A DNA stretch of 64,000 bases from Vampirovibrio chlorellavorus (GTDB lineage: Bacteria > Cyanobacteriota > Vampirovibrionia > Vampirovibrionales > Vampirovibrionaceae): contig CAIPMU010000014.1 in NCBI GenBank assembly GCA_903866275.1, forward strand, positions 1 to 64,000, written 5' to 3'. Below the pieces are notes generated by a model. The model made no database searches, was not told the origin of the DNA, and saw only the letters and a list, made by a program, of their open reading frames with translations. The translations under genes were made by a program, and so were the position numbers. This document shows, one piece after another, positions 2,562 to 64,000 of this stretch (its first letter is position 1; the number at the start of each line of letters is the position of its first letter).

Positions 2562-2983
2562 TTGATATTTCATCTTTAGAAAATGCCATTAAACAATTAG
2601 AAATCAGCCTTTCCTATACTGAATCTGATCTAGCGGAAAAAGATGGAGGCATTGCTTTACAGTTTCGAGCGGCCTCAATTCAAGCTTTTGAATATACTTA
2701 TGAGCTTGCACATAAGATGTTAAAACGCTATTTGGAAGATACAGAGCCTAGCCCGGACTTGATTGAGTCAATGACATTCCAAGAATTGATCCGTACCGGG
2801 GCTGAGCGTGGGCTCTTACTGAACTCTTGGGATATTTGGAAAGCTTATAGAAAAGCAAGAGGGTCGACTAGCCATACCTATAATGAAGATTCAGCAGTCA
2901 GCGTTTTCTCTAACATTCCACAATTCCTTGAGGAAGTTCGTTTTCTTCGTGATCAAATCAATACAAGACAACAAGCCAAATGA
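2558..2983 (+). CDS. HepT-like HEPN toxin (HI0074-type nucleotidyltransferase substrate-binding protein)
   Basis: This 141-residue helical protein carries R101-GSTS-H106-T-Y108, an exact RX4HXY motif. That motif is the active site of HepT-type HEPN ribonucleases, and in characterised HepT/MntA pairs the Tyr is the residue AMPylated by the antitoxin. The N-terminal region (LENAIKQLE..., [17 protein letters not shown]) is typical of the HI0074 family. It overlaps hsdM by 4 bases and the next gene by 4 bases, so it is co-translated with both. The next gene begins with the cognate MntA-type domain. A role as RNase toxin held in check within the restriction operon is inference from the motif and order. 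Confidence 0.9.
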
Positions 2984-4578: not shown

Positions 4579-5165
4579 GCGTAACAACCCCGCTTTTAAT
4601 TGTGATTGGTGGCCCCAATGGAGCAGGCAAAACCACGGCGGCCATGGCCGTATTGCCTGAAGCGCTTTCCTTGGTTGAGTTTCTGAATGCGGATGAGATT
4701 GCCAAGGGGCTTTCCCCGCTCAATCCCGGTTCGGTTGATATCCAAGCTGGCCGTCTTCTGCTAGAACGAGCGAACCACTTCCTTCAAAAGGGCACGCCCT
4801 TCGGCTTTGAAAGCACCTTGGCGGCATCCACCCCCATTAAGCTAATGAAAGCGGCCAAAGTAAAGGGCTATCAGGTGGTATTACTCTATTTTTGGCTATC
4901 CTCTCCCCAATTGGCCATGGAGCGAGTTCGGGAGAGAGTGAATAAGGGCGGGCATAACATCCCGGAAGCGGTCATTATGCGCCGCTATAACAGGAGTATC
5001 CAGAATTTAACCGCTAACTATATCCCTCTGGCCGATGTTTGGATGGTTTTTGATAACTCGAACGATAATCCTGCCCTGATTGCCGAGGGTGAGCAAGAAT
5101 CGGCAATGATTCACGTTTATAATGATAGTATCTGGCAGCAATTGATGAAAGGAGCCGAAACATGA
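4575..5165 (+). CDS. Zeta-toxin-like P-loop kinase/ATPase
   Basis: The 196-residue protein has a Walker A motif GGPNGAGKTT at residues 12-21. It continues as zeta toxins do: FLNADEIAKGLSP and a later conserved FESTLA segment, plus a basic helix (MERVRERVNKGGHNIPE) in the lid position. Zeta proteins phosphorylate UDP-N-acetylglucosamine, but many family members of this short AAA type have unknown substrates, so the toxin role is inference. No epsilon-type antitoxin gene is next to it. It overlaps hsdS by 4 bases (ATGA) and the next small gene by 4 bases, so it is a built-in member of the restriction operon. Confidence 0.85.
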   Translation: MSVTTPLLIVIGGPNGAGKTTAAMAVLPEALSLVEFLNADEIAKGLSPLNPGSVDIQAGRLLLERANHFLQKGTPFGFESTLAASTPIKLMKAAKVKGYQVVLLYFWLSSPQLAMERVRERVNKGGHNIPEAVIMRRYNRSIQNLTANYIPLADVWMVFDNSNDNPALIAEGEQESAMIHVYNDSIWQQLMKGAET

Positions 5166-5335
5166 GTCAATCCTCTGGGAACGCTTCTGGAAACGGGCAA
5201 TTCGGTGACATGCGGAAGAAAATCACGCAGGTCGCCACTAAAGCGCTCCGTGATGCTGCTAAATCATCTAAAGCTATCGCTGGTAGCAGTCTTAAGTCTT
5301 CAAAATCCGTTACAAGCAAACGTTCTGGCAAATAA
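5162..5335 (+). CDS. Small basic Ser/Lys-rich protein, 57 aa
   Basis: A short frame begins with an ATG that overlaps the stop of the zeta-like gene (ATGA) and encodes MSQSSGNASGNG..., ending in a Lys/Ser/Ala-rich tail (KSSKSVTSKRSGK). The 57 residues hold about a dozen Lys/Arg and almost no acidic residues, so it would be a nucleic-acid-binding or HsdR-interacting peptide if expressed. Translational coupling and the 32-base gap to hsdR support a real gene. Its function is unknown; a partner or inhibitor of the zeta-like protein is one possibility, and nothing in the sequence proves it. Confidence 0.65.
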   Translation: MSQSSGNASGNGQFGDMRKKITQVATKALRDAAKSSKAIAGSSLKSSKSVTSKRSGK

Positions 5336-5367
5336 AACGCTCTTGAACCCCAATTGAAAGAAGTCGG

Positions 5368-8300
5368 ATGTCATTTACTGAAAGCGTGGTGGAGGATGCC
5401 AACCTAGCATGGTTGGAAGAGCTTGGCTATGAAGTGGTTTTTGGCCCTTCCATAGCGCCTGAGGAAATGTGGGCCGAGCGGGACAAGTATGAGCAGACCA
5501 TTCTGGTCAATCGGCTGAAACGGGCTTTGGAAACCATTAATCCGGGCATCTCACCGGAGCTGATTGAGGAATGTATTCGCCAACTCAACCGGCTGGAGCT
5601 TCCGAGCCTGATTGAAACTAATCGGGCCTTCTATGACCTGCTGATTAATGGCGTTTCCCTGGAAACCCGGCGGGAAGATGGCACGTTGGGCTTTGTGCCG
5701 GTGCATCTGGTCGACTTTGAAAACCCGGAGAATAACAACTGGCTGGCTGTAAATCAGTTTACAGTAATCCAAGGCCCTAAAAATAGGCGTCCTGATATCG
5801 TTGTTTTCCTCAATGGCTTGCCGGTCGCTGTTATTGAGCTTAAAAACCCCGGAGATGAGAACGCCACAATTAATAAGGCGTTTACACAGCTTCAGAATTA
5901 CAAAAACGATATTTCCTCGCTGTTCCATACCAATGGCCTGCTAGTCATCTCAGATGGGATGGAAGCGCGGGTGGGAACTATCTCTGCTGACTTTGAACGC
6001 TTCATGCCCTGGCGCACCATAGATGGTCAAACCATTGCCTCCAAGGGTATCTCTGAACTGGAAACCCTCATCAAAGGGGTATTCAATCAGCGGGTATTTC
6101 TGGACATGTTGCGCCATTTCAGCGTTTTTGAAGATGACGGCAAGAAAATCATCAAGAAAATCGCAGGCTATCACCAGTATCATGCGGTGAATAAAGCCAT
6201 TGAGCGCACTATTGAAGCCACTCAAGGCGAACATCGGGCCGGTGTCGTTTGGCACACCCAAGGTTCAGGCAAGAGCCTAACCATGGCATTCTATTCTGGC
6301 AAGGTCATTCAGCATCCGGCCATGAAAAACCCCACGTTGGTGATTCTCACGGATCGCAATGATCTCGATGATCAGTTGTTTGGCACGTTTGGCAATTGTC
6401 ATGAGCTGCTGAGACAAAAGCCCACGCAAGCTGATGATCGGGATGATATCCGAAAGTTACTACAAACTGGCTCGGGCGGCGTTATTTTTACCACCATTCA
6501 AAAGTTTTCCTTGCTGGAAGGGGAAAAAGAGTTTCCCAAGCTATCTGAGCGCTCTAATATCGTGGTGATTGCGGATGAAGCACACCGGAGCCAGTACGGC
6601 TTTAAAACCAAAATTGATGCAAAGACCGGCGAAAAGTCAGTAGGCTTTGCCGCTATGATTCGCCAAGCCTTGCCCAATGCCTCTTTCATTGGTTTTACGG
6701 GTACTCCGGTTGCTGGCACCGATAAGAATACTCAGCAGGTCTTTGGGGATTATATTGATATCTATGACATTCAACGGGCTGTTGAGGATGGGGCGACCGT
6801 TCGCATTTACTATGAAAGCCGCCTAGCCAAAATTGAGCTGGATGAGAATGAGAAGCCCAAGCTCGATGAAGACTTTGAGGAAATAACCGAAGGCGAGGAA
6901 GATAGCCGCAAGGAAAAAGAAAAATCCAAGTGGTCTCGCATGGAAGCCTTGGTGGGCGCTGAAAAGCGGGTAGATCTCATTGCTCAGGATATTGTGACCC
7001 ACTTTGAAGACCGCACGGCGGCCATGGCCGGAAAAGGGATGATTGTAGGCATGAGCCGCCGGATTTGTGTGGCCTTGTACGAAGCAATAAAGACACTTCG
7101 GCCTCACTGGCATAGTGATGATGATACCCAAGGGGCCATCAAGGTCATTATGACGGGTTCCTCTTCCGATCATGAGAACTGGCAAAGGCATATACGAAGC
7201 AAAGACCGGCGAGATGCTTTAGCCAAGCGCTTGAAAGACCCTAAAGACCCTTTGAAGCTAGTTATTGTTCGGGATATGTGGCTAACTGGCTTTGATGCCC
7301 CCTGTCTTCATACCATGTATGTGGATAAGCCCATGAAGGGCCATAACCTGATGCAGGCAATTGCACGGGTGAACCGAGTCTTCAAAGACAAGCAAGGTGG
7401 CTTGGTAGTCGATTATATAGGCATTGCCGACCTCCTCAAGAAAGCCTTGATGGAATACACCGAAGGCGACCGCAAAGAAGCGGGCATCCCTATTGAGGAT
7501 GCGATTGCTATCATGCTGGAAAAGCTGGAGCTGGCTCGATATCTCCTCAAAGCTTATGACTATACCAAAGGCTTGGATGGAACACCTTCACAACGTTTGA
7601 CCTCTATCGCAGAAGCCATGGAGCATATTCTCGGGCTGGATGACGGGAAGCAACGGTTTATGCAGATTGTGTTGGAGCTTTCTCACGGCTTTGCTTTGGC
7701 CTCCACTACGGATGAAGCCATAGAAATCCGGGATGTGGTTGGATTCTTCCAGACTATCCGTGCGGCCTTTGCGAAAAGTACCGCTGGAACTGGTAAGACC
7801 ATTGAGCAATTGGATACCGCACTTCAGCAAATTGTTTCTAAAGCCGTATCCTCCACTGAGATTGTGGATATTTTCTCGGCGGCTGGCCTGAAGACCCCGG
7901 ATATTTCTATTCTCTCGGATGAGTTTTTGGCCGAAGTGCAAGGCATGGAGAAAAAGAACCTTGCCTTGGAACTCCTACGAAAGCTTTTGACCGATGCCAT
8001 CAAGACCCGCGCCAAAAAGAACGTAGTGCAGGCCCGCAAGTTTTCTGAGATGCTGGAAAGCGCCATTAAGCGATACTATGCCAAGCAAGTGGAAACCGCT
8101 CAAGTGATTCAAGAGCTGGTGGAGATGGCCAAAGACTTTCAAGCCGCCAGTCGTCGGGGTGATGAATTAGGTCTTCAAGAAGATGAAGCCGCCTTCTATG
8201 AGGCTTTAGAAGTGAATGAGAGTGCTGTTTTGGAGCTGGGCGATGAGATTCTCAAGACCATTGCACGGGAGTTAGTGGCCACTGTGAAACGCACGGCCAC

Positions 8301-8466
8301 AATTGACTGGACAAAAAAGGAAAGCGTCCGGGCAAAGCTTCGGGTCATGGTTAGGCGAATACTGAGGAAGTATAACTATCCCCCTGATAAACAAGAAGCC
8401 GCCACTCAGACGGTTTTAGAGCAAGCTGAAGCTTTGACTGAGGAAGAATTGGGAAGTTACGCGTAG
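5368..8466 (+). CDS. hsdR: Type I restriction enzyme R subunit (translocase/endonuclease)
   Basis: The 1032-residue HsdR cuts unmethylated DNA after ATP-driven translocation. Visible domains are an N-terminal PD-(D/E)XK nuclease (RPDIVVF then IELKNP near residues 141-160), an SF2 helicase with Walker A (TQGSGKS near residue 299), DEAH (near 402) and FTGTPV, the second RecA domain with the [10 protein letters not shown] and QAIARVNR motifs, and a helical C-terminal region for HsdM/S binding. The length is normal and no disruption is seen. The start follows AAGAAGTCGG. It ends the plus-strand operon and converges on zorD. Confidence 0.97.
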
Positions 8467-8553: not shown

Positions 8554-11500
8554 TTAAAGTGCCCCTACCGGAGCGTGTAGAGTCTTTAACAATAGAGCTA
8601 AATCTTCCATATTATCCAAACGTTCACTTTCTTTCTGTAGAATATCCTGAAATGTCAGATCAGAACTAGTAAGCATTGCCTGTATTTGATGTTTATCAAT
8701 GATTTTAATGCCAGCATCACTCAGAGAACGTTTTAATCCATTCTCAATTTCTAAAGGCGTAAAAAGGAGCATTTCAATAGATAGGCCAAGATCTGCAAGG
8801 TATCTGTTGCGATAATATGTTAAAGAGATCTTCATCTCTTCGGCAATATCAAGACTAAGCCCTTGATTGGCGGTAAAGGGTTTGCATATAAGTAATTGTG
8901 CCTGTTGGCCTTTATACAGAAGGGCATCTATGCCTCGGCTTGCCATAGTCGGGGGTAAAATTGTATTAAACCCTTGCTTGCCCATCAATGCTGCACAGAA
9001 ACTGGCAAATCGTTGGGAATCCAATTGTATCAAGTCGTTCATAGTGAAGTGCGGCCCACTTTCTGGGGCTACTTCTTTCGAGAAGATACTCATAAGGCTA
9101 CTGGTTACATCTAGTGCTGCAATCGGTGTAAGGATATCGCGTCGTAATTCGGACTTCTGCCTTAAAAGGGCGTCCAATTTTTGTTCGAAAGTTTCCTGGG
9201 TGGGGTCTGGAGCCCTTCCAATCGGATAGTAAACCTTAACTGGTCGTGTTTGCCCGATTCGATAGGCTCTACATGTGGCTTGGTCTTCCGTCGCTGGATT
9301 CCACCAACGCCCATAATGGATCACATGATTAGCTTCTACAATAGTAAGTCCGACTCCTGCCACATCAGGAGAAAGAATCAAAGCGTTAAAGCCAGCAGTC
9401 TCTTCAAATTCACGAATTAATCTAAAGCGATCGGACTCTTCGTCATTAGTACGCTTGTTTCCCTTGGTACTACCATTAATAATAGCAGCCTTAATCCCAA
9501 ATTTATACGCAAGCACTACTTTTAGAATATTCTGCATGGGTAATGAACGTGTAAAGATCAAGACTTTTTCGCCTTTTTCCTTGATGGTTTCCAAATGCTC
9601 ACAAACCACTTGGAGTTTAGGAGAATGGTCAATTAGCTGTTGTGGTGAATAATCAAGATCCATATTCATTAAAAGCAGAGGATGTTCATATAATTTTTTG
9701 AGTTGATGGAGTGCGATTAATGAAGCTCCTAGTTTTTCAGATTGCTGTGCTGTTTTTATAATAGCGGCCTGAAGTTGCCATTGTCTTTCTGAAACAGGGT
9801 AATAAAGACGAATTTCTTCTTTAGTAGGCAATTCATCGCTTCCCAAATAATCTTCTTTGTAGCGATTTAATACAAAAGTCCGATGTAGTTCACCCATGCC
9901 CAAACGATCTTTCAATGCTTGAGCACTGCCAGGTTCATTGTTTATAATTTTCTTTTCATATTGGTGTGCGAATTCTTTGTCAGTCCCTAATAAAGTACCT
10001 GGGCAGACAAAATCCATAATACACCACAGATCCATCAGTCCATTTTCAATGGGGGTGCCACTCATAGCAATCTTAAAACGAGCATTGGATGCTAATCCTT
10101 TCATTGCATGGGTGATAGCAGTTTTTTCATTTTTAAGTTCTTGAGCCTCATCGGCGATCACGATTGACCATTTTATTGTTTCGAAGGAGTGCTGGTAATT
10201 TTTAAGAGTGTCATAATTGGTAATAATGATTCTATTACGTTTTAGTTTCTCTAGATCGAGAACCGTTCTCCCAATTTTATATTCTCGTCCTTTGATAGTG
10301 GGATCTGCAATAAATTGTTTAATGCTTTTACTATTAAGAATGGCAACAGGCGAAAAAATACTGCCATTATTATCAAAGAACTTTTCGATCTCCTTTTTCC
10401 AATTTTCAAGGAGAATTAAAGGGGCAACAATAAGAATAGGTCGGCGAGGATCGTCATCAGAATTACGCTCTAATATATCAGGAAATGATTCTGGAGAGCC
10501 AGATTCGATTAGCCAAGCTAAAAATGTAAGCACTTGAAGCGTTTTACCAAGACCCATGTCATCGGCTAATAACACTCCCGATCGATGGGTTTTAAAGGAG
10601 CCTTGAAGCCAGCTCACGCCTTGTTGCTGATAAGGCTTCAGTTGAAATGGGGTCTCTTTGAATGTTGTTATTAGGTTTTTTGGAGGATGGTATGTTAATT
10701 CAATCGAACGGTGAACACCGAGGGATTCAGAATAAGCAAGAAAATCCTCGGAGTTTTCAGCGATATGGAGGAAGTAGTCTCCGCTTGACTTTTTCGTAGC
10801 AGTCGTTGAAGGTTCCGGCGTGTTTGCGTTTAAGTCTGAGATGTTGTTAGCGGTACGCTCTTTCCATTCGTTAATATTGCGATTCAGTTGGTCACATAAT
10901 CCTTCGGAAATCGGAACAAATAAAGTTTCCTTATTATCACCTTGGATAGGTATAGCAACTAACCCTTTTTTAAGCCCTTCGATTACATCGTAAAGGACAT
11001 TTTCTGCCTTCGCAACTGTATTTAGAGGGATGTTTATGTTGTTCCCACTGGGTGTTAAGGCATCAATATCTATATATAAGTCACTAGATTCATCATTTAG
11101 GAATTTAGGACGGTTTTCATTTTTAAGTCTAGGTATAGGGTGGAATATATAAGGGCCAATATCAATGACTCGATCACCAAAACCGTCCAGATTCTTTGAT
11201 GTATTTTGCAGAATCTCTGTGGCTGAATGATTATAGTGTTCACGCTCTCTTGAAAAAGAGTCCAATGAGATTCTGTCAGTGGCGCAAATTCCTTCAAATG
11301 CGGAAAGGGGATTCAGCATAATCTGATCCTTTGCAGGTCCCGAGATACTGGTTAAGTTTTCTCTCATATGCGTTAATGCGGTCTGAAGCTCTTCATTTAT
11401 AACCAACCTGATGCGTGCACCAGATGATGTCTTGACATCATAAAAAGGTTGGCCTTCAGCATGTTGATAAAAGGCTTGTTTCAGTACTTCCTCTTCTACA

Positions 11501-12198
11501 CCTTCAAACTGAGGAACGCAACTGATACGGCCTTCAGAATCTACTGTTAGGCCAATACTAAATTGCTCAGGGATCAGTGCCGTTTCATTGGCCATTGTTT
11601 TGGTCATGCTCACGGATTCAGGATCGCAAAAGAGCTTGATTTTTGAGAAATGACGAAGATTTTGGCCTTTCCCTTTGCTGGCAGTAGGGAGTTGGTTAAA
11701 TTCGTCAATTGACTCCAGAAGGTTGAAGATATCTTGAGGGAGTATATAAAGCTGTTTGCCAGTTTTCAAAAAACAACCGATCCGGGTTGGAAATACCTGT
11801 TTTGGACCGATAAAAAAAGAATATTCAAACAAAAGATCAGGGCTTGCCAAATGAAGTGTATTTTGAAGGTCTAAAGTAAATGGTGAAAAGCTTGGTAGTA
11901 ATTGAGCAAAGCCAAAATCTTCCCCATGCTCTTCTTCAGGGTTGAGCAAGTGATAGAACTGCTCATTAGTAATCAAAAGTGTTTGATCAGGTGCAATCTC
12001 TGCAATCCCAATAGAAAGAAAGGTAGGTAGCCACCGGAGGAGCTGTTTACCTAGTGGCGTATGAGCTGGGCTCTTTGTGCAGATGTCATCAATGTTTTCA
12101 TAGGAAAAGCCTACTGTTCCTTCAATTTGCAAGCCCTGATCGGTTATATTACAGTAGAGTTCAGAGTTGATTTCGGTTAAAAAAGTTTTCATTGACAT
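8554..12198 (-). CDS. zorD: Zorya type I effector ZorD: SNF2-family helicase with C-terminal nuclease-like domain
   Basis: The 1214-residue protein has the SNF2/SWI2 motor: Walker A LLADDMGLGKTLQVL near residue 540, DEAQ near 681, a SGTPIENGLMDLW motif, and the C-terminal helicase half ending in GRWWNPATEDQATCRAYRIG. About 540 residues precede the motor. After it, near residue 1086, the stretch GIDALLYKGQQAQLLICKP looks like the core of a restriction-endonuclease-like (Mrr-type) domain. In studied type I Zorya systems ZorD is the DNA-degrading effector. It is the last gene of the minus-strand zorABCD operon, 14 bases after zorC. The order and full set make the assignment firm; the nuclease domain call is less sure. 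Confidence 0.92.
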   Translation of the reverse strand: MSMKTFLTEINSELYCNITDQGLQIEGTVGFSYENIDDICTKSPAHTPLGKQLLRWLPTFLSIGIAEIAPDQTLLITNEQFYHLLNPEEEHGEDFGFAQLLPSFSPFTLDLQNTLHLASPDLLFEYSFFIGPKQVFPTRIGCFLKTGKQLYILPQDIFNLLESIDEFNQLPTASKGKGQNLRHFSKIKLFCDPESVSMTKTMANETALIPEQFSIGLTVDSEGRISCVPQFEGVEEEVLKQAFYQHAEGQPFYDVKTSSGARIRLVINEELQTALTHMRENLTSISGPAKDQIMLNPLSAFEGICATDRISLDSFSREREHYNHSATEILQNTSKNLDGFGDRVIDIGPYIFHPIPRLKNENRPKFLNDESSDLYIDIDALTPSGNNINIPLNTVAKAENVLYDVIEGLKKGLVAIPIQGDNKETLFVPISEGLCDQLNRNINEWKERTANNISDLNANTPEPSTTATKKSSGDYFLHIAENSEDFLAYSESLGVHRSIELTYHPPKNLITTFKETPFQLKPYQQQGVSWLQGSFKTHRSGVLLADDMGLGKTLQVLTFLAWLIESGSPESFPDILERNSDDDPRRPILIVAPLILLENWKKEIEKFFDNNGSIFSPVAILNSKSIKQFIADPTIKGREYKIGRTVLDLEKLKRNRIIITNYDTLKNYQHSFETIKWSIVIADEAQELKNEKTAITHAMKGLASNARFKIAMSGTPIENGLMDLWCIMDFVCPGTLLGTDKEFAHQYEKKIINNEPGSAQALKDRLGMGELHRTFVLNRYKEDYLGSDELPTKEEIRLYYPVSERQWQLQAAIIKTAQQSEKLGASLIALHQLKKLYEHPLLLMNMDLDYSPQQLIDHSPKLQVVCEHLETIKEKGEKVLIFTRSLPMQNILKVVLAYKFGIKAAIINGSTKGNKRTNDEESDRFRLIREFEETAGFNALILSPDVAGVGLTIVEANHVIHYGRWWNPATEDQATCRAYRIGQTRPVKVYYPIGRAPDPTQETFEQKLDALLRQKSELRRDILTPIAALDVTSSLMSIFSKEVAPESGPHFTMNDLIQLDSQRFASFCAALMGKQGFNTILPPTMASRGIDALLYKGQQAQLLICKPFTANQGLSLDIAEEMKISLTYYRNRYLADLGLSIEMLLFTPLEIENGLKRSLSDAGIKIIDKHQIQAMLTSSDLTFQDILQKESERLDNMEDLALLLKTLHAPVGAL

Positions 12199-12212: not shown

Positions 12213-13586
12213 TTATGGTCTTATTCCATGGGCTGCCAGTACATTGGAAAGATTATCCAACCAAATATTTTGGTGATGAGGCACAGACTCTTTTGCCAGA
12301 GTTGGGTTTTTTAAAGAGCGAACATCAAAACTGCCAATTGTTTTTCCATTCTTTCCGGTGTATATAGATTGTGCATTATTTTGGAGTCTTAAAAAAGTAT
12401 CTTTTTCGTAGAGATAAGCACAGCCTACCCGCGAAAAATCTACAATCACATATTTTCCAAAATCAAGAATAAAGGCACTGTTATGGCTGGAATCCTTCTC
12501 AAGGGAGGCGTAATAATAGCCCTCTTTCTTCAGTTCACTTAATTGATATGTATTAGCACTATTATCACTAGGCCCAATGGCAATGGTAGAGCCTTTGATA
12601 CATTTTAAATAACGCAACCAAAAGCGTTTTCGCTTTTGCGTGTCATTTTTAATGATCATATTAAAAAAAAGTTCAATATCGGCTTGAGATAGCCATCCAA
12701 CAAAGGCTTCTCGGGCTCTTGCTTCAATATTCACCCACTTGCCTGGAGAGATTCGTGGGTCCCCATAAGCATTACTCGCTAGAAACCATCGCTGTAGAAA
12801 GCTAATGCCTTGTTCTCTTGCTTCAGCTGGATAGTTATCAACAAGTAATATCAGTTTGCTTAAAGTATCAAATTGTGTGGTTTCAATAAAATTGGAAAAT
12901 AAGTAAGTCCATTCGACAGGGTTAAAAGTATGGGACACTTGGATAATGCGTTTCAATAATTGCCCAACCACTTCATCACGGAGTGCTTCAGCGAATTGAC
13001 TAGTCGCTGAAAAGTAATAACGCTCTGCTGTTATCTCAAGGGTCTCACCCTTATGGATTACCGTAGGAGCTAATTGAGCTGGTCCTTCTTTAGCTAATAG
13101 GAACTCTTGATGCTCCTTCCAGGCTAATAGTTTCCTGTTTCGACCGTTATAGCGTCGTAGAAACCAAGCGAGAAAGTCCCGAATTAGAATATGGTTTTCG
13201 TTCGTTTTCCAAGTCTCATGGAATGCATTTTGAAAAGGCATAAGGATGCTGGGGGTGAAAATAGCCTGTCTGCGCTTTAGTAAACCTCTGATTTCTGGGC
13301 TTCTAATCACGGAAGATTGAGAGCAAAGTATACGGATTTCCCTGCGAGTTAATCGGTCAAAATCATCGGTCTTGATCGCCTCTGTCCATGCCTCTAACGC
13401 TTTTTCTCGCTGTTCTCCGGTGAACATTACCGTTTTAGTAAAGCCTGCTTTTTTTTCAAGATTCCTTTGAAATTTTTCAATCTCAGGACAAGCGAGAGTC
13501 ATTGTGGAGCGTGTTAAAAGATTTGAGAAACTCCTTAAATCCTGAAGTGTTTCAAGTAAAGGGTGCTGGCTTCTCGAATCAGTCAT
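12213..13586 (-). CDS. zorC: Zorya type I protein ZorC (EH-signature family)
   Basis: A 457-residue soluble protein without membrane segments, rich in helices in its middle and with a basic, aromatic C-terminal third (FILDFGKYVIVDFSRVGCAY). It sits between zorB (2-base gap) and zorD (14-base gap), where ZorC is found in type I Zorya. ZorC is the component that links the membrane motor to ZorD and binds DNA in characterised systems. The assignment rests on position plus the general look of the EH-signature family; I cannot name single diagnostic residues with confidence. Confidence 0.85.
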   Translation of the reverse strand: MTDSRSQHPLLETLQDLRSFSNLLTRSTMTLACPEIEKFQRNLEKKAGFTKTVMFTGEQREKALEAWTEAIKTDDFDRLTRREIRILCSQSSVIRSPEIRGLLKRRQAIFTPSILMPFQNAFHETWKTNENHILIRDFLAWFLRRYNGRNRKLLAWKEHQEFLLAKEGPAQLAPTVIHKGETLEITAERYYFSATSQFAEALRDEVVGQLLKRIIQVSHTFNPVEWTYLFSNFIETTQFDTLSKLILLVDNYPAEAREQGISFLQRWFLASNAYGDPRISPGKWVNIEARAREAFVGWLSQADIELFFNMIIKNDTQKRKRFWLRYLKCIKGSTIAIGPSDNSANTYQLSELKKEGYYYASLEKDSSHNSAFILDFGKYVIVDFSRVGCAYLYEKDTFLRLQNNAQSIYTGKNGKTIGSFDVRSLKNPTLAKESVPHHQNIWLDNLSNVLAAHGIRP

Positions 13587-13588
13587 TT

Positions 13589-14263
13589 TTATTCCACCGA
13601 TTGCTCGACAGCTTTCATTTGCTGTCTTTGTTCAACCGATTTTACCCGAATTTTGAATTCCACTCGACGGCTGGCGTCTTGGTTCTCTTTTTTATTTGTA
13701 TAAACGAGGTCGCGCTCTCCTCGGCCATTAGTAGAGGCAACATTGAGCAAGCAATCTCGCTCCTGTTTTAGCAAGTTAGTGTTATTTAGGGTGTACTTCA
13801 TGACTGCAAATGACCGATTTTGAGACAGCGAGAGGTTGTTTTCATCAGTGTCGCGAGAATCCGTAAAACCTTGAATGAAGACGGATTCCACATCTTTCTT
13901 ATATTCGGGGCTGCAAATAATGCCGGTTAAGCGTGGGCCAAGCCATTTTAAAAAATCTTGTCCGGTGGGCTTTATTTGGTCAGCTCCAGTATCGAAAGAT
14001 AAATGCTTATCTCTAACTCGCACAGTGCAAGAAAGTGGATCTTTTTTCTCGTCATATTCACATTCGATATTTTTAACTTTAAGTCCGGCATCAATTTTGT
14101 TTTTTAGAGCAAGTAATCTATTGTGGCTGCCTCGTTGTGTATCTTCGAAGTTCTGGTTCATATAACAGACAAGAAGCAAAATAAAAATTACTGCTAGAGA
14201 GGTCATCAAGTCAGTCATAGAGTGTGATAGTGGATCACCGGAATGCCGCTGTTTATTTTGCAT
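13589..14263 (-). CDS. zorB: Zorya motor protein ZorB (MotB/OmpA-like)
   Basis: The 224-residue protein has one N-terminal membrane helix, TDLMTSLAVIFILLLVCYMN, with an Asp at its start as in MotB-type ion-conducting stators. A periplasmic OmpA/MotB-like peptidoglycan-binding domain follows: QGFTDSRDTDENN, LSLSQNRS and the closing ASRRVEFKIRV. Two ZorB and five ZorA subunits are expected to form the inner-membrane stator that senses phage infection. It overlaps zorA by 11 bases and precedes zorC by 2 bases, so the operon is tightly coupled. Confidence 0.93.
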   Translation of the reverse strand: MQNKQRHSGDPLSHSMTDLMTSLAVIFILLLVCYMNQNFEDTQRGSHNRLLALKNKIDAGLKVKNIECEYDEKKDPLSCTVRVRDKHLSFDTGADQIKPTGQDFLKWLGPRLTGIICSPEYKKDVESVFIQGFTDSRDTDENNLSLSQNRSFAVMKYTLNNTNLLKQERDCLLNVASTNGRGERDLVYTNKKENQDASRRVEFKIRVKSVEQRQQMKAVEQSVE

Positions 14264-16322
14264 GAGTTACAAGCTTTTTCTCTAACATGTCAGTCAGACT
14301 CGACAATTGATCGTCAAGGGTCTCCACCGTTCCTCCGAGCATATTTAAGGAGCCTTTTAAGTGAGCATCAAGATCGGTTGTATATGTCTGAATGCCAGCA
14401 TGAGTGGTATTGCTGTAGTCTTGAAGAGCTTTTTGAATTTGCGATAAAACGTTTCCTAGTGAGCTATCGAGTGTCTCATAGACTCTCCGCTGATTGACTT
14501 GGAGGTTTTCCAGGTCCTGAAGTAAGGTTGAGAATTGCGAGGTAATTGAAACCACTCGGTCCATGTTGTCTTTGAGATGCTGCCTACCATTGTCGGCCTC
14601 TTTAGATACAGCGCTGAGGTTATTAGTACTGGTCTCTAACTGAGAAATACTGCCTTGAAGTTGCCTGAAGAGGTTACTATTGCCTGCCAGAGCTTGATCA
14701 AATGATCCGGTAGACGCTTCCAGCTTTTGGCCCGCTATGCTCAGGCTGTCAGCTAAGGAGATTTGCTTATTTAAAATCTCTTCTAACGAGTTTCTGGATT
14801 TGGCCAACCATTCTTCATTCTGAGAATTTAATGCTTGATGATGCGCCGAAAGATGATTGGTTTGGGACTCTGTAGTTGTTTGTATTTGTTGTAAGAGGAT
14901 TTCAATGCTACTGGATAAGCCTTCTTGCTGGGTATTCGCAGAGCCTTCAATTTTTTGCACCAATTGCGCAACGGTATCAGATAAAGCTTGTGTCTGACTC
15001 AGTAGTTGCTCTTTCTGGTGATTATTAGAATCGCTAAAAGCACCAGTCATCTCCTGCATCCGCTCTTCCATTTGTGCACTCCATTGCGAGGTTTGTAGGA
15101 GTACGTTTTGAATGTTTTGTTGAAAGGCGTCCATAGAATCAGATGAAGATCCCGCCAATCGATCCATAATATGCCCCATCGCATCTTGTAATTCATTAGC
15201 ATGAGTACTCGATTGCTGACGTTGTTGATTTAGCGTATCTTCGAGCTGTTTGAACAGATTGCCCATGTAGTCGTCTAAAAGTTGATTTTTTGCATCTAAG
15301 CCTGCCAAAAATGTAGAGGCTTTGCTGAGAGATTCCGCTAAGCCTTGGATTTCTGAGTTTGCAGCGCCTGTCATTGATTGTCTAAACTCGTCCATGACTT
15401 CTTTCATGGTTGCTCCAAAGGACTCAGCTAATGTATCAGACTTTTGCTGTCTCAATGCTTCAGTAGTCTTATTTAGGTCTTCTATGGCTCTGATCATCTT
15501 ACCAATTTCAGGTGTTATATTCTGAGTAACACTTTCCGTAAGTTTTTCAGCAACAGTAAGACCAAACTCCTCTAATGGTTCTGTTTGTCGTTCTAGCTGG
15601 GTTAGCGATTCTGAAAGTAGCTTTTCTGAGGTAATGCGGGGAAAAATTTGATTCAAAGTATGCTGCACTGTATATAAATGTCGATTAAGACCGTTTAGGC
15701 AGACTGTTTCAGCTCCTGTAAATAGTAATGCGCCTAGTAGACCTACAATGGAAGAAGAAAATTTACCCGATAAACTGTTAATTAGGATATCAATTCCTTC
15801 AACCTTGCCGCCAGTCATGACATTCAAATGTGCCAGCCCTAGGAGCAGTGCGCAAAAAGTCCCCAATAACCCAAGTCCTGTCAAAATAGCTGGAATACTA
15901 GAAAGCCACCCAGGAATAGAATGATAGATGGTCTCTGGGGTGAAAAATGCTTCGGCCTGAAGTGTGTTGTGGAAGAAATAAGCATTCTTTCTTTTTAGCT
16001 TGATGATGGTTTCTTGCATCTCACTCCAAGAATACTTAAGAGAAGGTTTAGAAAGTAAGAATTCTCCAATAGCCTCATATTGTTCATCTGTGAGTACTTG
16101 CTCTTGGATCTGAGCATTTAAATCTTCAAGAAATCTTTTGGCACTGGTGAGCTGATGCTGTGTATCTACCCATGTTTTTACAAGTTGATAAAAGGAATAT
16201 ACAAAAATAATAATAGCTATAAATGAGATCGCTGTGGAAATAATTGGAATCTCAATACCCAGCCATGTAGATGCATAGGGCGTTGGCTTGGCGAAGGCAG
16301 ATAGCCAATTGTGAGCTTGCAT
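14253..16322 (-). CDS. zorA: Zorya motor protein ZorA (MotA-like with long coiled-coil tail)
   Basis: The 689-residue protein has membrane helices near residues 25-48, 138-165 (AILTGLGLLGTFCALLLGL) and 185-210 (SSSIVGLLGALLFTGAE), matching the MotA/TolQ/ExbB stator fold. The remaining roughly 470 residues are a Gln/Ser/Asn/Leu-rich coiled coil, the cytoplasmic tail known in type I ZorA. It is the first gene of zorABCD. The ATG at 16322 has AAAGGAAC about 8 bases upstream. AT-rich sequence further upstream contains TATAAT on the minus strand (16439-16444), a possible -10 element without a clear -35. Confidence 0.93.
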   Translation of the reverse strand: MQAHNWLSAFAKPTPYASTWLGIEIPIISTAISFIAIIIFVYSFYQLVKTWVDTQHQLTSAKRFLEDLNAQIQEQVLTDEQYEAIGEFLLSKPSLKYSWSEMQETIIKLKRKNAYFFHNTLQAEAFFTPETIYHSIPGWLSSIPAILTGLGLLGTFCALLLGLAHLNVMTGGKVEGIDILINSLSGKFSSSIVGLLGALLFTGAETVCLNGLNRHLYTVQHTLNQIFPRITSEKLLSESLTQLERQTEPLEEFGLTVAEKLTESVTQNITPEIGKMIRAIEDLNKTTEALRQQKSDTLAESFGATMKEVMDEFRQSMTGAANSEIQGLAESLSKASTFLAGLDAKNQLLDDYMGNLFKQLEDTLNQQRQQSSTHANELQDAMGHIMDRLAGSSSDSMDAFQQNIQNVLLQTSQWSAQMEERMQEMTGAFSDSNNHQKEQLLSQTQALSDTVAQLVQKIEGSANTQQEGLSSSIEILLQQIQTTTESQTNHLSAHHQALNSQNEEWLAKSRNSLEEILNKQISLADSLSIAGQKLEASTGSFDQALAGNSNLFRQLQGSISQLETSTNNLSAVSKEADNGRQHLKDNMDRVVSITSQFSTLLQDLENLQVNQRRVYETLDSSLGNVLSQIQKALQDYSNTTHAGIQTYTTDLDAHLKGSLNMLGGTVETLDDQLSSLTDMLEKKLVTHAK

Positions 16323-18848: not shown

Positions 18849-19415
18849 TTAAAGGCCTTTTAGCCTCATGTCATGCATTAAGTAGGGAGTATCTTTTCCA
18901 TTCAAGACGTTATTGCATGCTCTTTGGTAGTCGTCATCGCAATGTATTTTTTGACGCCAATCTTCAGTATTCTCTAAGTGCTTAAAAGGTGATTCATTAT
19001 ATTCTTTCCTTAAGCGTCCAGGCCATTGATCACAATGACCTTCAACGTTAGCTATAGTTAGCTTTGTGTCCTCAGCGACTTGTTTACAAGCTTTAATTTT
19101 CGAAAGCTCATATTTTTCCATGAGATAAACAACCATTCTTGCAACATCAAAGAAGATTTGTACTCGACCTGGCGTTCTTTGATGGGACTGGGTAAGTACA
19201 CTAATATCATTGTGTTTATCCAGCTTAATGGCTTTGTGGGAAAAATAAAGTAGAAATTCTTCAGGTATCATAGGAGAAGGCTCGACATAACGTGCTATTC
19301 GGCTGAAAATGAATTTAATGGCTTCTGGATCTCCATCATTTGCTCTAATACTTATTTCTTTAATTTCTGAGAAGCTGAGTATTTTATCCGGTTGGGGAAG
19401 GCCGCTATATGTCAT
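18849..19415 (-). CDS. Hypothetical protein coupled to the integrase, 188 aa
   Basis: A 188-residue mainly helical soluble protein with no recognised family. Its start overlaps the integrase stop by 4 bases (ATGA type), so it is translated with the integrase. The C-terminal third is charged and contains Cys, His and Trp residues (CDDDYQRACNNVL) but no clear zinc site. A stretch near residues 100-130 could form a weak helix-turn-helix. Coupling to int suggests a role in island integration or control. Confidence 0.6.
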   Translation of the reverse strand: MTYSGLPQPDKILSFSEIKEISIRANDGDPEAIKFIFSRIARYVEPSPMIPEEFLLYFSHKAIKLDKHNDISVLTQSHQRTPGRVQIFFDVARMVVYLMEKYELSKIKACKQVAEDTKLTIANVEGHCDQWPGRLRKEYNESPFKHLENTEDWRQKIHCDDDYQRACNNVLNGKDTPYLMHDMRLKGL

Positions 19416-20506
19416 GGATGCTTTTCCTTTTTGTATTCAAATTGTCGGGCATTCATTTTCTCCAAGACACTAACTGTATGCTGCTCACCAAGGTGGGCGT
19501 ACCGTTTTACCATTTGTAACTGCTTATGGCCAAGAACATCAGCTATTTCAAGTAGAGTGGCTCCCTCCATAGCAAGGTAACTAGCAGCTGTGTGGCGGAG
19601 ATCGTGAAAGCGAAAGTCTTCGATTTTGGCATCTTTGACCGCTTTTTCCCAATGTTTCCTTATCTCCATTGGCTTCTGGCCATCTTGACGAGGGAATAGA
19701 TAGGGTGTGTCGGTTCGTCTATTGCTTCTGAGTTGTTGAAGCTCTTCCCAGCCATGGCCAACAATGGGAATGGAGCGCCTTTCCCCATTCTTTGTTTTCT
19801 CAAGCCGGATCATTCGTTGTTGAAGGTCGATATTATCCCACTTCAGGTTTAAAAGTTCGCTCCAACGCGCTCCAGTTGATAAGGCAAGCACGACAAGCGG
19901 GTATAGAAAAGGGTGGATATCCTTTTTTTGGCATTGTGTGAGAAGGTCTTGTCTTTCCTCATTGGTCAGGAATCGGACTCGGCCTCTTGGCTCGATGGGC
20001 TTTCTCACTTTCAGCACAGGGTTTTCATCCATCCAGGCCCATTCTTTAACAGCATAGGAGACGGCGACCGACAAAGAACTGAGGTATCGTACCACTGTGG
20101 CAGGGCTTCTCAGCTTTTCCTTGGTTTTTGCTTTTTCAGATTTCTCCGTGAGGAGTTTATCTCGATACTCGGCTATTAAGGTTGGTCGAAGGTCATAGAG
20201 CTTGTAATATCCAAGATTTGCTTTCCACCACTCCAAGTGAAGCTTAATGTCGGCTTTTCCGGTACTTCTTTGGGGTAGAACATCAGAAATATAACGCTCT
20301 ATAAGGTCAGAGACGGTCTTTTTCTTTGACTGGCTTGTGCCGGAATGCTTGCCCTCCCGCATGGCTGCTTCTGTTTTCTGCATCCAGAGCTTGGCATCGG
20401 TCTTGCGTTCAAAGGTAGCAGTGGCAGGAGGATGACCTTTAATGCGAACTTCTACCGTATAGCGGGTTTGCCCAGCACTGTTTTTGCGTTCCTTAATGCG
20501 AGCCAT
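19412..20506 (-). CDS. int: Tyrosine recombinase / phage-type integrase
   Basis: The 364-residue protein has an N-terminal arm-binding domain, a core-binding helical domain (about 60-165), and a catalytic domain. Catalytic residues are visible: Arg in TGARWSE (near 212), H-x-x-R in FHDLRHTAAS (near 300), His in LGHKQ (near 325) and the nucleophile Tyr in VKRYAHLG (near 335). I choose ATG 20506 (MARIKERKN) over an in-frame ATG at 20557 because the extra 17 residues are unlike family N-termini and come from a repetitive stretch. It sits directly beside the tRNA-Thr attachment site and should integrate and excise the island. Confidence 0.95.
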   Translation of the reverse strand: MARIKERKNSAGQTRYTVEVRIKGHPPATATFERKTDAKLWMQKTEAAMREGKHSGTSQSKKKTVSDLIERYISDVLPQRSTGKADIKLHLEWWKANLGYYKLYDLRPTLIAEYRDKLLTEKSEKAKTKEKLRSPATVVRYLSSLSVAVSYAVKEWAWMDENPVLKVRKPIEPRGRVRFLTNEERQDLLTQCQKKDIHPFLYPLVVLALSTGARWSELLNLKWDNIDLQQRMIRLEKTKNGERRSIPIVGHGWEELQQLRSNRRTDTPYLFPRQDGQKPMEIRKHWEKAVKDAKIEDFRFHDLRHTAASYLAMEGATLLEIADVLGHKQLQMVKRYAHLGEQHTVSVLEKMNARQFEYKKEKHP

Positions 20507-20529
20507 TATGCATCTATCCTCTTGAGTCG

Positions 20530-20556
20530 TGTCCCATTCTTGTCCCATTTGTCCCA
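20530..20556 (+). repeat. Three direct TGTCCCA(TT) repeats upstream of int
   Basis: TGTCCCATT occurs at 20530-20538 and 20541-20549, and TGTCCCA again at 20550-20556. They lie between the integrase start and the tRNA fragment, where arm-type integrase sites are often found. A fourth TGTCCCATT occurs at 20843-20851, inside the next gene. The role as integrase binding sites is a guess from position and repetition. Confidence 0.5.
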
Positions 20557-20666
20557 CAAAAATGAGGATAAGTCACGAGCCTCTTGGATATGTATAATGG
20601 CTAAAAGCTTTGCTGGTTCTTATCCTTAAATATCCTTCTGTTTCCTGCTGAGTCTATTATTACAGA

Positions 20667-59613: not shown

Positions 59614-61713
59614 GTGGCCAGAAAGACCCCACTCGAGAAGATCCGCAACATCGGTATCGCCGCGCACATTGATGCCGGTAAAACCACTGCCACCGAGCGG
59701 ATTTTGTACTTCACCGGCAAAATTCACAAACTGGGCGAAGTTCATGAAGGAACCGCCGTAACCGATTGGATGGAACAAGAGCGCGAGCGCGGCATCACCA
59801 TCACTTCGGCTGCTATTACCTCCTACTGGAAAGATTACCAGATCAACATCATTGACACCCCAGGCCACGTGGACTTCACCATCGAAGTAGAACGCTCCTT
59901 GCGCGTACTGGACGGTGTGGTTGCTGTGTTCTGCGCGGTGGGCGGCGTTCAATCGCAATCCGAAACCGTGTGGCGTCAAGCCGATCGATATCAGGTTCCT
60001 CGTATGGTTTTCGTGAACAAGATGGATCGTACCGGCTCCAACTTCTACCGCGTGGTGGAGCAAATTCGCACCCGTTTGGGCGCCAACGCGCACCCCATTC
60101 AAATGCCCATCGGCGATGAAGAAGATCAAATCCGCGGGATTATCGATCTCTTGACCGAGCGCGCTTACATCTTCAAAAACGATGTCGGTACCGATATCGA
60201 AGAAACCGATATCCCCGCTGATTACGCTGAAAAAGCGGCTGCAGCCCGCGAGAGCCTCGTTGAAGGCATCGTGGAAACCGATGATGCCTTGATGGAAAAA
60301 TACTTCGGCGGTGAAGCCCTCTCTGTGGCTGAGCTGAAAGCCGCTTTGCGCAAAGCGGTCTGCGATGTAAAAATCGTGCCCGTGACCTGCGGTACGGCCT
60401 TCAAAAACAAAGGGATGCAGTTGTTGCTGGATAACGTTATCGACTTCCTGCCTTCTCCCTTGGAAGTTCCCAGTATTCAAGGTCGCAATATTGATGGCAC
60501 CGATACCGAGCGCAAGAGCGATGACAACGAGCCTTTCGCCGCGTTAGCGTTCAAAATCATGACCGACCCTTATGTGGGCCGTCTGACCTTCTGCCGCGTA
60601 TACAGCGGTGTGTTGAACGCCGGTAGCTATGTGTTGAACGCTACCAAAGGCAAAAAAGAACGCATCAGCCGCTTGCTGCAAATGGAAGCCGATGACCGCA
60701 AAGAGATCGATGAAGTTCGCGCCGGTGATATTTTCGCCGTGGTGGGCTTGAAAGATACCACCACCGGGGACACCCTGTGTGCGGAAAACTCGCCGGTTAT
60801 TTTGGAATCGATCCACATTCCCGATCCTGTAATCGAAGTGGCTATCGAACCCAAAACCAAAGCGGACCAAGAAAAACTGTCCAACTCCATGTCCAAATTG
60901 GCCGAAGAAGATCCCACCTTCCGGGTGCGGGTCGACCAGGAGACGGGTCAAACCGTTATCGCCGGGATGGGCGAGTTGCACTTGGAAATCATCGTGGATC
61001 GTCTGCTTCGTGAATTTAAAGTCGAAGCCAACGTGGGTAAACCCCAGGTTGCGTATCGAGAAACCATCACCAAAACGGTGGAAGCCGAAGGCAAATACGT
61101 CCGCCAGTCCGGTGGTCGGGGTCAATACGGTCACGTATGGATCCGCCTGGAGCCCCTGGAGCGCGGCAGCGGTTTCGTGTTCGAGAACAAAATTGTGGGC
61201 GGCACGGTACCCAAAGAATACGTGGGCCCCGCTTCCAAAGGGATCGAAGAAGCCCTGCAAGGCGGGATCATCGCCGGTTACGAGTTGATCGATGTGAAAG
61301 CCACCCTGTTTGATGGTAGCTACCACGATGTTGACTCCAACGAGATGGCCTTTAAAATCGCTGGCTCGATGGCTGCCAAAGCCGGGGTGCCTAAAGCGGG
61401 TCCTCAGTTGCTGGAGCCTGTCATGAAAGTTGAAATCGAAGTGCCGGATGACTTTATGGGTGATGTAATCGGTGACCTTTCCAGCCGTCGTGGCCGGATT
61501 GAAGGGATGGAGCCCATCGCCAACACTGGTATCCAGAAAATCCGCTCGATGGTGCCTTTGGCCGAGATGTTCGGTTACGCCACCGATATTCGCAGCAAGA
61601 CTCAAGGTCGCGGTACCTTCAGCATGGAGTTCGCTCACTACGAACCGATGCCGAACAACATCGCCGAAACCTTGATCGCCAAACACAGAGGCCAAGCGGC
61701 AGCGACTACCTAG
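59614..61713 (+). CDS. fusA: Translation elongation factor G
   Basis: EF-G drives ribosome translocation with GTP. The 699-residue protein starts with GTG and shows the G-domain motifs [40 protein letters not shown] and [12 protein letters not shown]. Domains II-V end with the conserved [33 protein letters not shown]. The length is standard. Third gene of the str operon; tufA would be expected next in many genomes but is not found here, and the operon ends with a terminator. Confidence 0.98.
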
Positions 61714-61922: not shown

Positions 61923-63206
61923 TTAGTTTGAGGCGCCTTGGGTCTGACGAGTAGTGGTTTGATACATCTCGGGCATAAATTCGGCCAAAGTACGGCAGTG
62001 AATAACATCATTTTCCACGGTCAAAATCAGCGTATTGGAAGAGCCCCGACGGCGAGCGATCCGCCCAAGGCTGGTAAGTGGGGGTAAATTAGGGTCATCG
62101 CCGACATAGGCTAAGGCTTGCACGCTGGGAGGTTTCAGCCAGGTATTCAGATTTTGTCGCATGGCTCGAAAAAACCAAGCCCCTTCCAGCAGATCCGGTA
62201 GGGATTTTTTGAGGGCCCAGCGGGATTGAAACCCATCGGCCACTGCGCGTAAATCCGGCGCTTCAAACCAGCGGGTGGACCATTCAAAACGTTCCTGGCT
62301 GTGTAAAGAGCCATCGGGCTCCATGCGCGCGCATACCCCGGTTTTCATGCCTGATTCTTTGGCGCCATGCTGATTTTGCTGGTAAGCGGTTTGTGCTTCT
62401 TTAATCATCTTCCGCATGACGGCATGCGTGAGCTTGCTTGCCCCTGGATTGCGTTCGATCCGTCTGAGCACCGGTTGTGCACGGTGACTAATCTGCAGGG
62501 GCAGTTGATCGACCGGCTCATACGTGCTCATGCGTACGGGCTCGCTGCGGCCAATGTGTAAGGGGAGCATGTCTTTTACTGTCCGAATTCGGAGAAGATT
62601 GGTTCTCTTGTCAGGATCCTGCTCCAGGCTAACCACTTTAGTTTCGGGCGAACAAAAGCGGCTATTCATCCAGTCCTGACAATCGGCACAGGGGACGGGT
62701 TTTTCGCCATCGGGGGCTGCATTTACCAAAAAGATGGTTTTTACTCGCGGCGGCTGAGGCACTAGGCTGACCGGCTGGTCGGTAAATTGGGCTACATTCT
62801 GATTGAAAGCTTGCGTCATCGCGACTCGAAGATCGCAGAGAGAGGTCTGGCGACTAGCTTCGATGTTGGCGCCAATAGCCATGACCCCGTTTTCCAGCTC
62901 AACGGCGGCCCCGTAGTGCCGATGCGAAAAGTTGGGAAACAAGCGCTGAGCGGTGCGTGCGTGCGCGAGCGTTTTCATGAGTTGCGGGAGGTAATTTCTG
63001 CCGCTTTGGATGGAACCCCCTTTAATGCTCAGGGAGTTCATCGTGAATTCCAGCTGAACCAGATCTTCATCGGATGATTCCCGAATCGGCGGGAGGTTAG
63101 AGCGATAGGTACGCCTTGGATCAACGCGGCGGGAGTTTGGCGATGTCTGTAAGGGTGTTGAGGCAGTGTTTCCGCCGAACGTGAACAAGCTGGGTTGTAA
63201 GCGCAT
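61923..63206 (-). CDS. Tandem cytidine-deaminase-fold protein with degenerate active sites
   Basis: The 427-residue protein seems to contain two cytidine-deaminase-like halves. Half 1 (about 75-218) has HYGAAVELENG, GANIEASRQTSLCDLRVAM (C124-D-L where the enzyme has C/H-A-E), PCADCQDWM (C173, C176) and TVKDMLPLHIG, the T-x-x-x-LP end of the fold. Half 2 (about 257-415) repeats the outline: TGVCARMEPDGSL, EAPDLRAVADGF aligned to CDLRVA, TSLGRIARR in the PCxxC place and TLAEFMPEMY at the end. Half 1 keeps three Cys for zinc but lacks the catalytic Glu; half 2 lacks all. A nucleoside-binding or regulatory role is inference. The minus-strand GAACGGGATATACC precedes the ATG. Confidence 0.7.
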   Translation of the reverse strand: MRLQPSLFTFGGNTASTPLQTSPNSRRVDPRRTYRSNLPPIRESSDEDLVQLEFTMNSLSIKGGSIQSGRNYLPQLMKTLAHARTAQRLFPNFSHRHYGAAVELENGVMAIGANIEASRQTSLCDLRVAMTQAFNQNVAQFTDQPVSLVPQPPRVKTIFLVNAAPDGEKPVPCADCQDWMNSRFCSPETKVVSLEQDPDKRTNLLRIRTVKDMLPLHIGRSEPVRMSTYEPVDQLPLQISHRAQPVLRRIERNPGASKLTHAVMRKMIKEAQTAYQQNQHGAKESGMKTGVCARMEPDGSLHSQERFEWSTRWFEAPDLRAVADGFQSRWALKKSLPDLLEGAWFFRAMRQNLNTWLKPPSVQALAYVGDDPNLPPLTSLGRIARRRGSSNTLILTVENDVIHCRTLAEFMPEMYQTTTRQTQGASN

Positions 63207-63343
63207 GGTATATCCCGTTCAAAATTTGTTTTACAATTGAGCTTACCATAAGGGTAGAGTCCGCCCTACCTTATCCGTATACCTTTGGTTGAGCGTGTTT
63301 ACATGAAATCGGCCCCCGGGCCGTAGAGCAGTTGGAAGGTCTT

Positions 63344-64000
63344 GTGAAAAAAGCCGATCTCTTAATGATCCCGGGCCCGACGCCCTTGCCGGAAGCCGTT
63401 CGCGAGGTGCTTAGCCGCCCTGCCATTGGCCATCGCAGCGCTGAATTTAAAGAGGTGCTCAAACGGGTATTTCCCAATCTGCGCTGGATTTTTCAGTGCA
63501 AGAATCAGGTTTTCCTTTACACTGCCAGTGGTACTGGTGCGATGGAAGCGGCACTCTCTAACACGCATAACGCGGAAGACCGGATTCTGGTGTTGGTGAA
63601 TGGTGTGTTTAGCCAGCGTTGGGTGGAAATTGCCAAAACCTTGGGAATCACGGTAGAAAGTCTGGATGTGCCGCCGGGTGAGGCACATACGCCGGGCATG
63701 TTGCGGGAATATTTGCAGGCCAATGTGGGCACCCGGTATAAATCGGTGATGATGACCCACAGCGAGACATCAACCGGGGTGCTCAGCCCCATTCATGAGC
63801 TGACCGCCGTTTGCCGGGAAACACATCCGGAGACGCTGGTGATTGCTGACACCATTACCAGTCTGGGCGCGGCCCATTTTGATTTGGAAAGCTGGGATGT
63901 GGATATTGCCGTCTCTGGTAGTCAGAAGGGCTTTATGTTGCCGCCGGGCTTGTCCTTTTTGGCCTTGAGCGATCGTGCCTGGCAAGCGCATCAGCAGTGT
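63344..64000 (+). CDS. Class V aminotransferase (serine/alanine-glyoxylate aminotransferase type), N-terminal part
   Basis: The frame starts with GTG at 63344 (GGAAGG just upstream) and runs off the right edge after 219 codons. It opens LMIPGPTPLPEAVREVLSRP AIGHRSAEF, the N-terminus of the AGXT/SgaA family also annotated in cyanobacteria as the soluble hydrogenase 42-kDa subunit. LYTASGTGAMEAALSN binds the PLP phosphate, THSETSTGVLSPI is the substrate loop, ADTITSLGA has the pyridine-contacting Asp and VSGSQKGFMLPPG has the PLP Lys. The upstream gap of 137 bases separates it from the divergent CDA-fold gene. Confidence 0.92.
   Translation, partial: MKKADLLMIPGPTPLPEAVREVLSRPAIGHRSAEFKEVLKRVFPNLRWIFQCKNQVFLYTASGTGAMEAALSNTHNAEDRILVLVNGVFSQRWVEIAKTLGITVESLDVPPGEAHTPGMLREYLQANVGTRYKSVMMTHSETSTGVLSPIHELTAVCRETHPETLVIADTITSLGAAHFDLESWDVDIAVSGSQKGFMLPPGLSFLALSDRAWQAHQQC

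Follow-up and report, generated by a model that had tools for sequence, protein, structure and literature searches.

A two-domain cytidine deaminase-like protein of Vampirovibrio with leucine in place of the catalytic glutamate

In cytidine deaminases (CDAs), a glutamate is needed to activate the zinc-bound water and to protonate the leaving group, and an N-x-E motif contacts the nucleoside. On the helix that bears the C-A-E motif, the glutamate at the +2 position points at the substrate; the side chain at +1 does not. Tetrameric CDAs such as those of Bacillus subtilis and human are single-domain proteins, whereas the Escherichia coli, Vibrio and plant Cdd proteins consist of a zinc-bearing half followed by a zinc-less half of the same fold. 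A single sequence is often the sole basis on which a pseudoenzyme is proposed. In yeast ADAT3, Val218 stands in place of the glutamate, zinc is kept, and the subunit has a structural role (PMC7713142). We analyzed a window of 64,000 nucleotides from Vampirovibrio chlorellavorus, which is described as a predator of Chlorella (PMC4451040, PMC4913114). The window carries a CDA-like gene from a family that retains the glutamate in all members read outside the genus and has replaced it with leucine in every Vampirovibrio copy at hand.

Two cytidine deaminase domains in one protein

The open reading frame at 61923–63206 (minus strand) encodes 427 residues plus a stop codon and is the only member of its two-domain CDA-like family in the genome. 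It converges on fusA (59614–61713, plus strand) and diverges from a class-V aminotransferase gene (AGXT-like, assigned by reading the sequence; 63332–64000, plus strand) that runs off the window; both neighbors served as synteny markers. A scan for promoters and terminators around the gene gave no signal above chance, and PADLOC returned no match for it. By profile, model and dN/dS, half 1 (residues 75–225; 62532–62984) is a CDA domain with the zinc-ligand residues and without the catalytic glutamate. Its C124-D125-L126-R127 (62826–62837) aligns with a family consensus of C-[GAS]-E-R, and P172-C173-A-D-C176 (62679–62693) holds the second zinc-ligand pair, with both cysteines invariant in all rows. 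N114-I-E116 (62859–62867) is, by conservation, the counterpart of N-x-E, its role being taken from general knowledge of CDAs. Half 2 (residues 258–416; 61959–62435) has, by profile and model, a CDA fold without zinc ligands, and its P317-D318-L319-R320 (62247–62258) lies opposite the CDLR of half 1 in the profile alignment. The residues named in the initial annotation were all found where it had placed them. The N-terminal region (residues 1–74; 62985–63206) is fast-evolving and mostly disordered, as judged from pLDDT and dN/dS, and contains an F-x-G-like motif, FTFGG. All of these features lie on the minus strand.

Half 1 matched the NCBIfam model TIGR01354 with an E value of 1.4e-8 and 35 bits, which falls far short of the curated cut-off of 113.65 bits. 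Pfam gave no match for the window protein, and five of 13 relatives weakly matched dCMP_cyt_deam_1. When the profiles of the two halves were compared with hhalign, they matched each other with a probability of 96.8% (E 2.4e-10); in profile comparison, the canonical CDA encoded elsewhere in the genome was matched by half 1 (E 2.4e-8) and by half 2 (E 7e-5). An AlphaFold2 model built from a shallow 8-row alignment had a mean pLDDT of 71.8, with values mostly above 80 in half 1 and at the end of half 2, uncertainty in the central part of half 2 (near residues 300–360), and disorder (pLDDT below 50) in residues 1–57. A Foldseek search of the PDB with this model gave 65 matches at E ≤ 1e-3, the best reaching 3e-8; among the 50 of these 65 that were listed, all were CDAs or the CDA-fold blasticidin deaminase. 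They included the two-domain CDAs 4eg2 (Vibrio cholerae) and 6l08 (Arabidopsis) and the substrate-bound E56Q mutant of blasticidin S deaminase, 2z3i. Because the halves match each other and CDA profiles, and because the modeled fold matches CDAs in the PDB, we conclude that the protein is built of two predicted CDA domains; the double fold proposed in the initial annotation is upheld by structure prediction and fold search, with CDAs as the top PDB matches. Half 1 belongs to the tetrameric (three-cysteine) class; half 2, which has no zinc site, is the older of the two in its present form and resembles E. coli-type Cdd in this respect.

A family profile of 13 rows, the window protein included, was searched over 382 genomes of the class Vampirovibrionia. 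Matches at E ≤ 0.001 were found in 77 of them, about 40 being strong and full-length and the remainder weak and mostly of single-CDA length. The window protein, itself part of the profile, matched over its full length with an E value of 2.8e-144; used alone as query, it found most relatives at 2e-19 to 8e-81. In a wider scan of the phylum, strong matches were confined to the class. Relatives were not found in viral contigs or in plasmids at the sensitivity used. For the contig-pattern search, a 6-row alignment was employed, all 13 rows together being too diverse. The nearest named relatives, Vampirovibrio sp. (G002) and V. chlorellavorus NCIMB 11383 (G004), both belong to the genus of the window, and the literature searched contained no paper pairing "Vampirovibrio" with "cytidine deaminase." The two-domain CDA-like family of Vampirovibrionia to which the protein belongs is undescribed. 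In the sister genus represented by G009, three tandem family copies lie between AGXT and fusA (L072:8326-12946), one of them (L072:8326-9759) interrupted by an in-frame TAA. In another genus, a copy at G010:C70:8204-9831 (L018) appears split over two frames, with CGER in the first part, possibly a frameshifted pseudogene or a sequencing error.

A [hydrophobic/basic]-F-x-G motif recurs in otherwise disordered N termini, those of many family members and those at L033:1322-2587, L036:7667-9040 and L089:16219-17001; it is common to the family, to HAE-type CDA paralogs and to a few unrelated proteins of the order. The motif occurred in the first 75 residues of 58 of 346 open reading frames vs 26 in the last 80, in a set that is redundant, enriched in the two-domain family and includes chance frames. 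It is possibly a sorting signal.

Elsewhere in the window lies a complete type I Zorya anti-phage system (8557–16322, minus strand), comprising ZorA (14256–16322; E 8e-40), ZorB (13592–14263; E 7e-42), ZorC (12216–13586; E 1.5e-18) and ZorD (8557–12198; E 6e-194). It is adjoined by type I restriction-modification genes (906–8466, plus strand), with a methyltransferase at 906–2561 (E 2e-229) and a restriction subunit at 5368–8466 (E 0). Inspection by eye suggested a nucleotidyltransferase-like and a zeta-toxin-like frame between these two, and an integrase-like frame at 19415–20557. The low GC of the stretch from 8 to 20 kb suggests an acquired defence island.

Timing of the glutamate loss

At the position of L126, glutamate stands in 28/28 aligned rows from outside the genus and leucine in 4/4 Vampirovibrio rows, these four (one cut by a contig end) being the only copies from the genus in the collection. 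Two further, very divergent members from outside the genus also keep C-x-E. Position 125 is G, S or A in all 28 outside rows and aspartate in the four within. N114, C124, C173, C176 and P215 are conserved in 28/28 rows outside the genus and 4/4 inside, E116 is present in all four genus copies, and the glutamate is the only position identical in all 28 outside rows that is changed in all four inside. The loss of the catalytic glutamate and the retention of the cysteine ligands, both claimed in the initial annotation, are therefore borne out. The two motifs that it had singled out for a survey of homologs fared differently: the PCxxC cysteines are invariant, whereas CDLR occurs only in the genus, with C-x-E elsewhere.

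Maximum-likelihood analysis placed the CDLR rows, four in all, in a clade with 100/100 support among C-x-E rows; deep branching was poorly resolved, with several long rows, and the sister group of the clade is uncertain. In the three other genus genomes, the gene sits at the end of rpsL-rpsG-fusA, facing fusA. Two of them (G003 and G004) share with the window its divergence from the AGXT-like aminotransferase, and in G002 a contig break separates these two genes. Genomes of sister genera (G007 and G009) carry CGER copies at the same fusA/AGXT position, and AGXT-adjacent copies in G006 (CAER), G005 (CSEK) and G008 (CAE) likewise keep the glutamate, those of G005 and G008 being very divergent. 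The G001 assembly (76% complete) lacks both the gene and its AGXT neighbor, so that absence there is uninformative. Because C-x-E orthologs of other genera occupy the same locus and the glutamate is kept in 28/28 outside rows, the alignment indicates a single loss in the ancestor of Vampirovibrio, derived and genus-specific, after the two-domain family arose.

This order of events overturns the earlier proposal that an already altered domain was duplicated, since the two-domain protein was already in existence when the glutamate was lost. In half 2, [PA]-D-L is also found in relatives with an intact half 1 (ADL in L005, PDL in L014 and L053), other members having P-L-E or P-A-L. As the half 2 motif stands beside an intact glutamate, the identical D-L of the two halves does not stem from a common altered domain; the D-L of half 2 is older than the loss in half 1, in which the glutamate is kept in 28/28 rows outside the genus, same-locus orthologs included. 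Residue 320 differs even among the four genus copies (R, A, A, R), so the match of D-L-R between the halves is partly coincidence.

Selection on the gene and its possible roles

Between the closest genus pair, G003 and G004, dN/dS was 0.16 overall, 0.02 in the zinc core (residues 92–180), 0.06 in half 1, 0.14 in half 2 and 0.26 in the N terminus; these ratios rest on one pair, most others being saturated at synonymous sites. Codons for C, D, L and R varied only synonymously across the four species. That the gene is a decaying enzyme gene, intact by chance, would fit its fast overall divergence, the window copy being about 40–43% identical to the other genus copies vs 88–89% for fusA and 78–79% for AGXT, and would fit the interrupted tandem copy of G009. 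We nevertheless regard it as highly improbable and reject simple decay: four species keep frame, locus, synteny and zinc core, the core ratio is 0.02, and CDLR is invariant through synonymous codon change. The initial annotation had reasoned that homologs with a normal motif might reveal a merely decayed copy; such homologs exist, but frame, synteny and dN/dS argue against decay. Purifying selection on the glutamate-less copies agrees with its suggestion of a conserved non-deaminase job, with nucleotide sensing as one of several possible readings.

The window genome also encodes a canonical single-domain CDA (CAER, PCGAC; 145.7 bits, over the cut-off) and a separate two-domain CDA with HAE/PCGSC, and each of the three further Vampirovibrio genomes with the gene has both kinds. 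The cell would consequently keep cytidine deamination even if this protein had lost catalysis. The HAE/PCGSC protein of the window genome (L020:3164-4150, G000:C4; counterparts L022–L025) shares 42–45% identity with those of the rest of the genus and diverges as fast as the protein studied here.

We consider it fairly probable that the protein is a zinc-retaining pseudo-deaminase. It would work in the manner of ADAT3, or of the inactive half of E. coli Cdd, binding a nucleoside or a partner without catalysis, a role probably taken on by what was once an enzyme. The proton-shuttling glutamate would have become Leu126 and its neighbor Asp125 in the Vampirovibrio ancestor, while zinc, whose binding by half 1 is predicted from the retained residues, and the nucleoside pocket (N114, E116) would have been kept. 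The older, zinc-less half 2 would pack against half 1 like the C-terminal half of E. coli-type Cdd. Lacking the glutamate, the metal-bound water would not be activated nor the leaving group protonated, and the expected outcome would be the holding of a nucleoside-like ligand or a partner without turnover, as a binding, sensing or structural subunit. More tentatively, and with less than even confidence, we suggest that a whole genus of algal predators has made a deaminase of its ancestors, without change of chromosomal position, into a zinc-bearing pseudoenzyme under selection whose new role is that of a nucleoside sensor or sink, or of an obligate deaminase partner.

As a special case of the favored reading, unlikely though credible, the protein could function solely as the partner subunit of an active deaminase, in the way that ADAT3 pairs with ADAT2; the genome's own HAE/PCGSC CDA is one candidate. 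ADAT3 shows exactly such a loss, glutamate to valine with zinc kept (PMC7713142), and every one of the four genus genomes with the gene also has the two-domain paralog, which looks active; against this pairing, the two genes are not linked, and their families have different types of zinc ligand. Alternatively, the protein may still be an enzyme that copes with the leucine because its acid has shifted, Asp125 or a residue elsewhere activating the zinc water for an altered substrate. Asp125 is fixed with Leu126 in all four copies where the 28 others have G, A or S, all other active-site residues are kept, and purifying selection is strong; but the shift would require a rearranged helix, as the +1 side chain does not point at the substrate, and we know of no CDA with such an arrangement. 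We judge it quite unlikely. It is very unlikely, in our estimate, that members of the family, whether active or not, are secreted or delivered in the course of predation, the pseudoenzyme acting on the nucleotide pool or other targets of the prey. The predation of V. chlorellavorus on Chlorella (PMC4451040, PMC4913114), the disordered, fast-evolving N terminus with its F-x-G motif, which recurs also in some unrelated proteins of the order, and the tandem copies of G009 would suit such a role, whereas no signal peptide was seen by eye in the window protein, no secretion gene lies in the neighborhood, and several further lineages of the class have the family too.

Comparison with described deaminase-fold proteins

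What appears new is a Glu-less two-domain CDA-like pseudoenzyme, predicted to retain zinc and fixed in Vampirovibrio, that derives from a family with an intact motif; an uncharacterized two-domain deaminase-like family of Vampirovibrionia is thereby brought to notice. The C-[GAS]-E-R members of this family are orthologous and share locus and architecture, but keep the glutamate in all copies read outside the genus. With intact same-locus orthologs in sister genera, the loss of just one fully conserved residue, the catalytic one, and strong selection on the rest of the site, the two states form a clean natural before-and-after pair, in which one may ask what function a deaminase fold serves after catalysis has been lost.

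The best match in sequence and fold is the tetrameric CDA (TIGR01354; B. subtilis, human, EfCDA 8x6u), with which the protein shares the fold, the three-cysteine site (C-x-x-R...PCxxC) and N-x-E; it differs from that single-domain, glutamate-bearing enzyme in its two domains, its leucine and its score of 35 vs 113.65 bits. With the two-domain Cdd of E. coli, Vibrio and plants (4eg2, 6l08) it shares a zinc-bearing half 1, zinc being predicted here, followed by a zinc-less half 2 of CDA fold, but it has C-D-L where E. coli-type half 1 has H-A-E. ADAT3/Tad3 offers the closest parallel to the substitution itself, a hydrophobic residue (Val218) for the glutamate with the zinc site kept (PMC7713142), the site of the window protein being recognized from its residues. 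ADAT3 differs in belonging to the TadA-type tRNA deaminase branch, in its tRNA-binding N-lobe, in its heterodimer with ADAT2 and in being eukaryotic. If the genus did make its deaminase into a selected pseudoenzyme with a new role, the Vampirovibrio protein would parallel ADAT3 in bacteria, and intact orthologs at the same locus would allow comparison.
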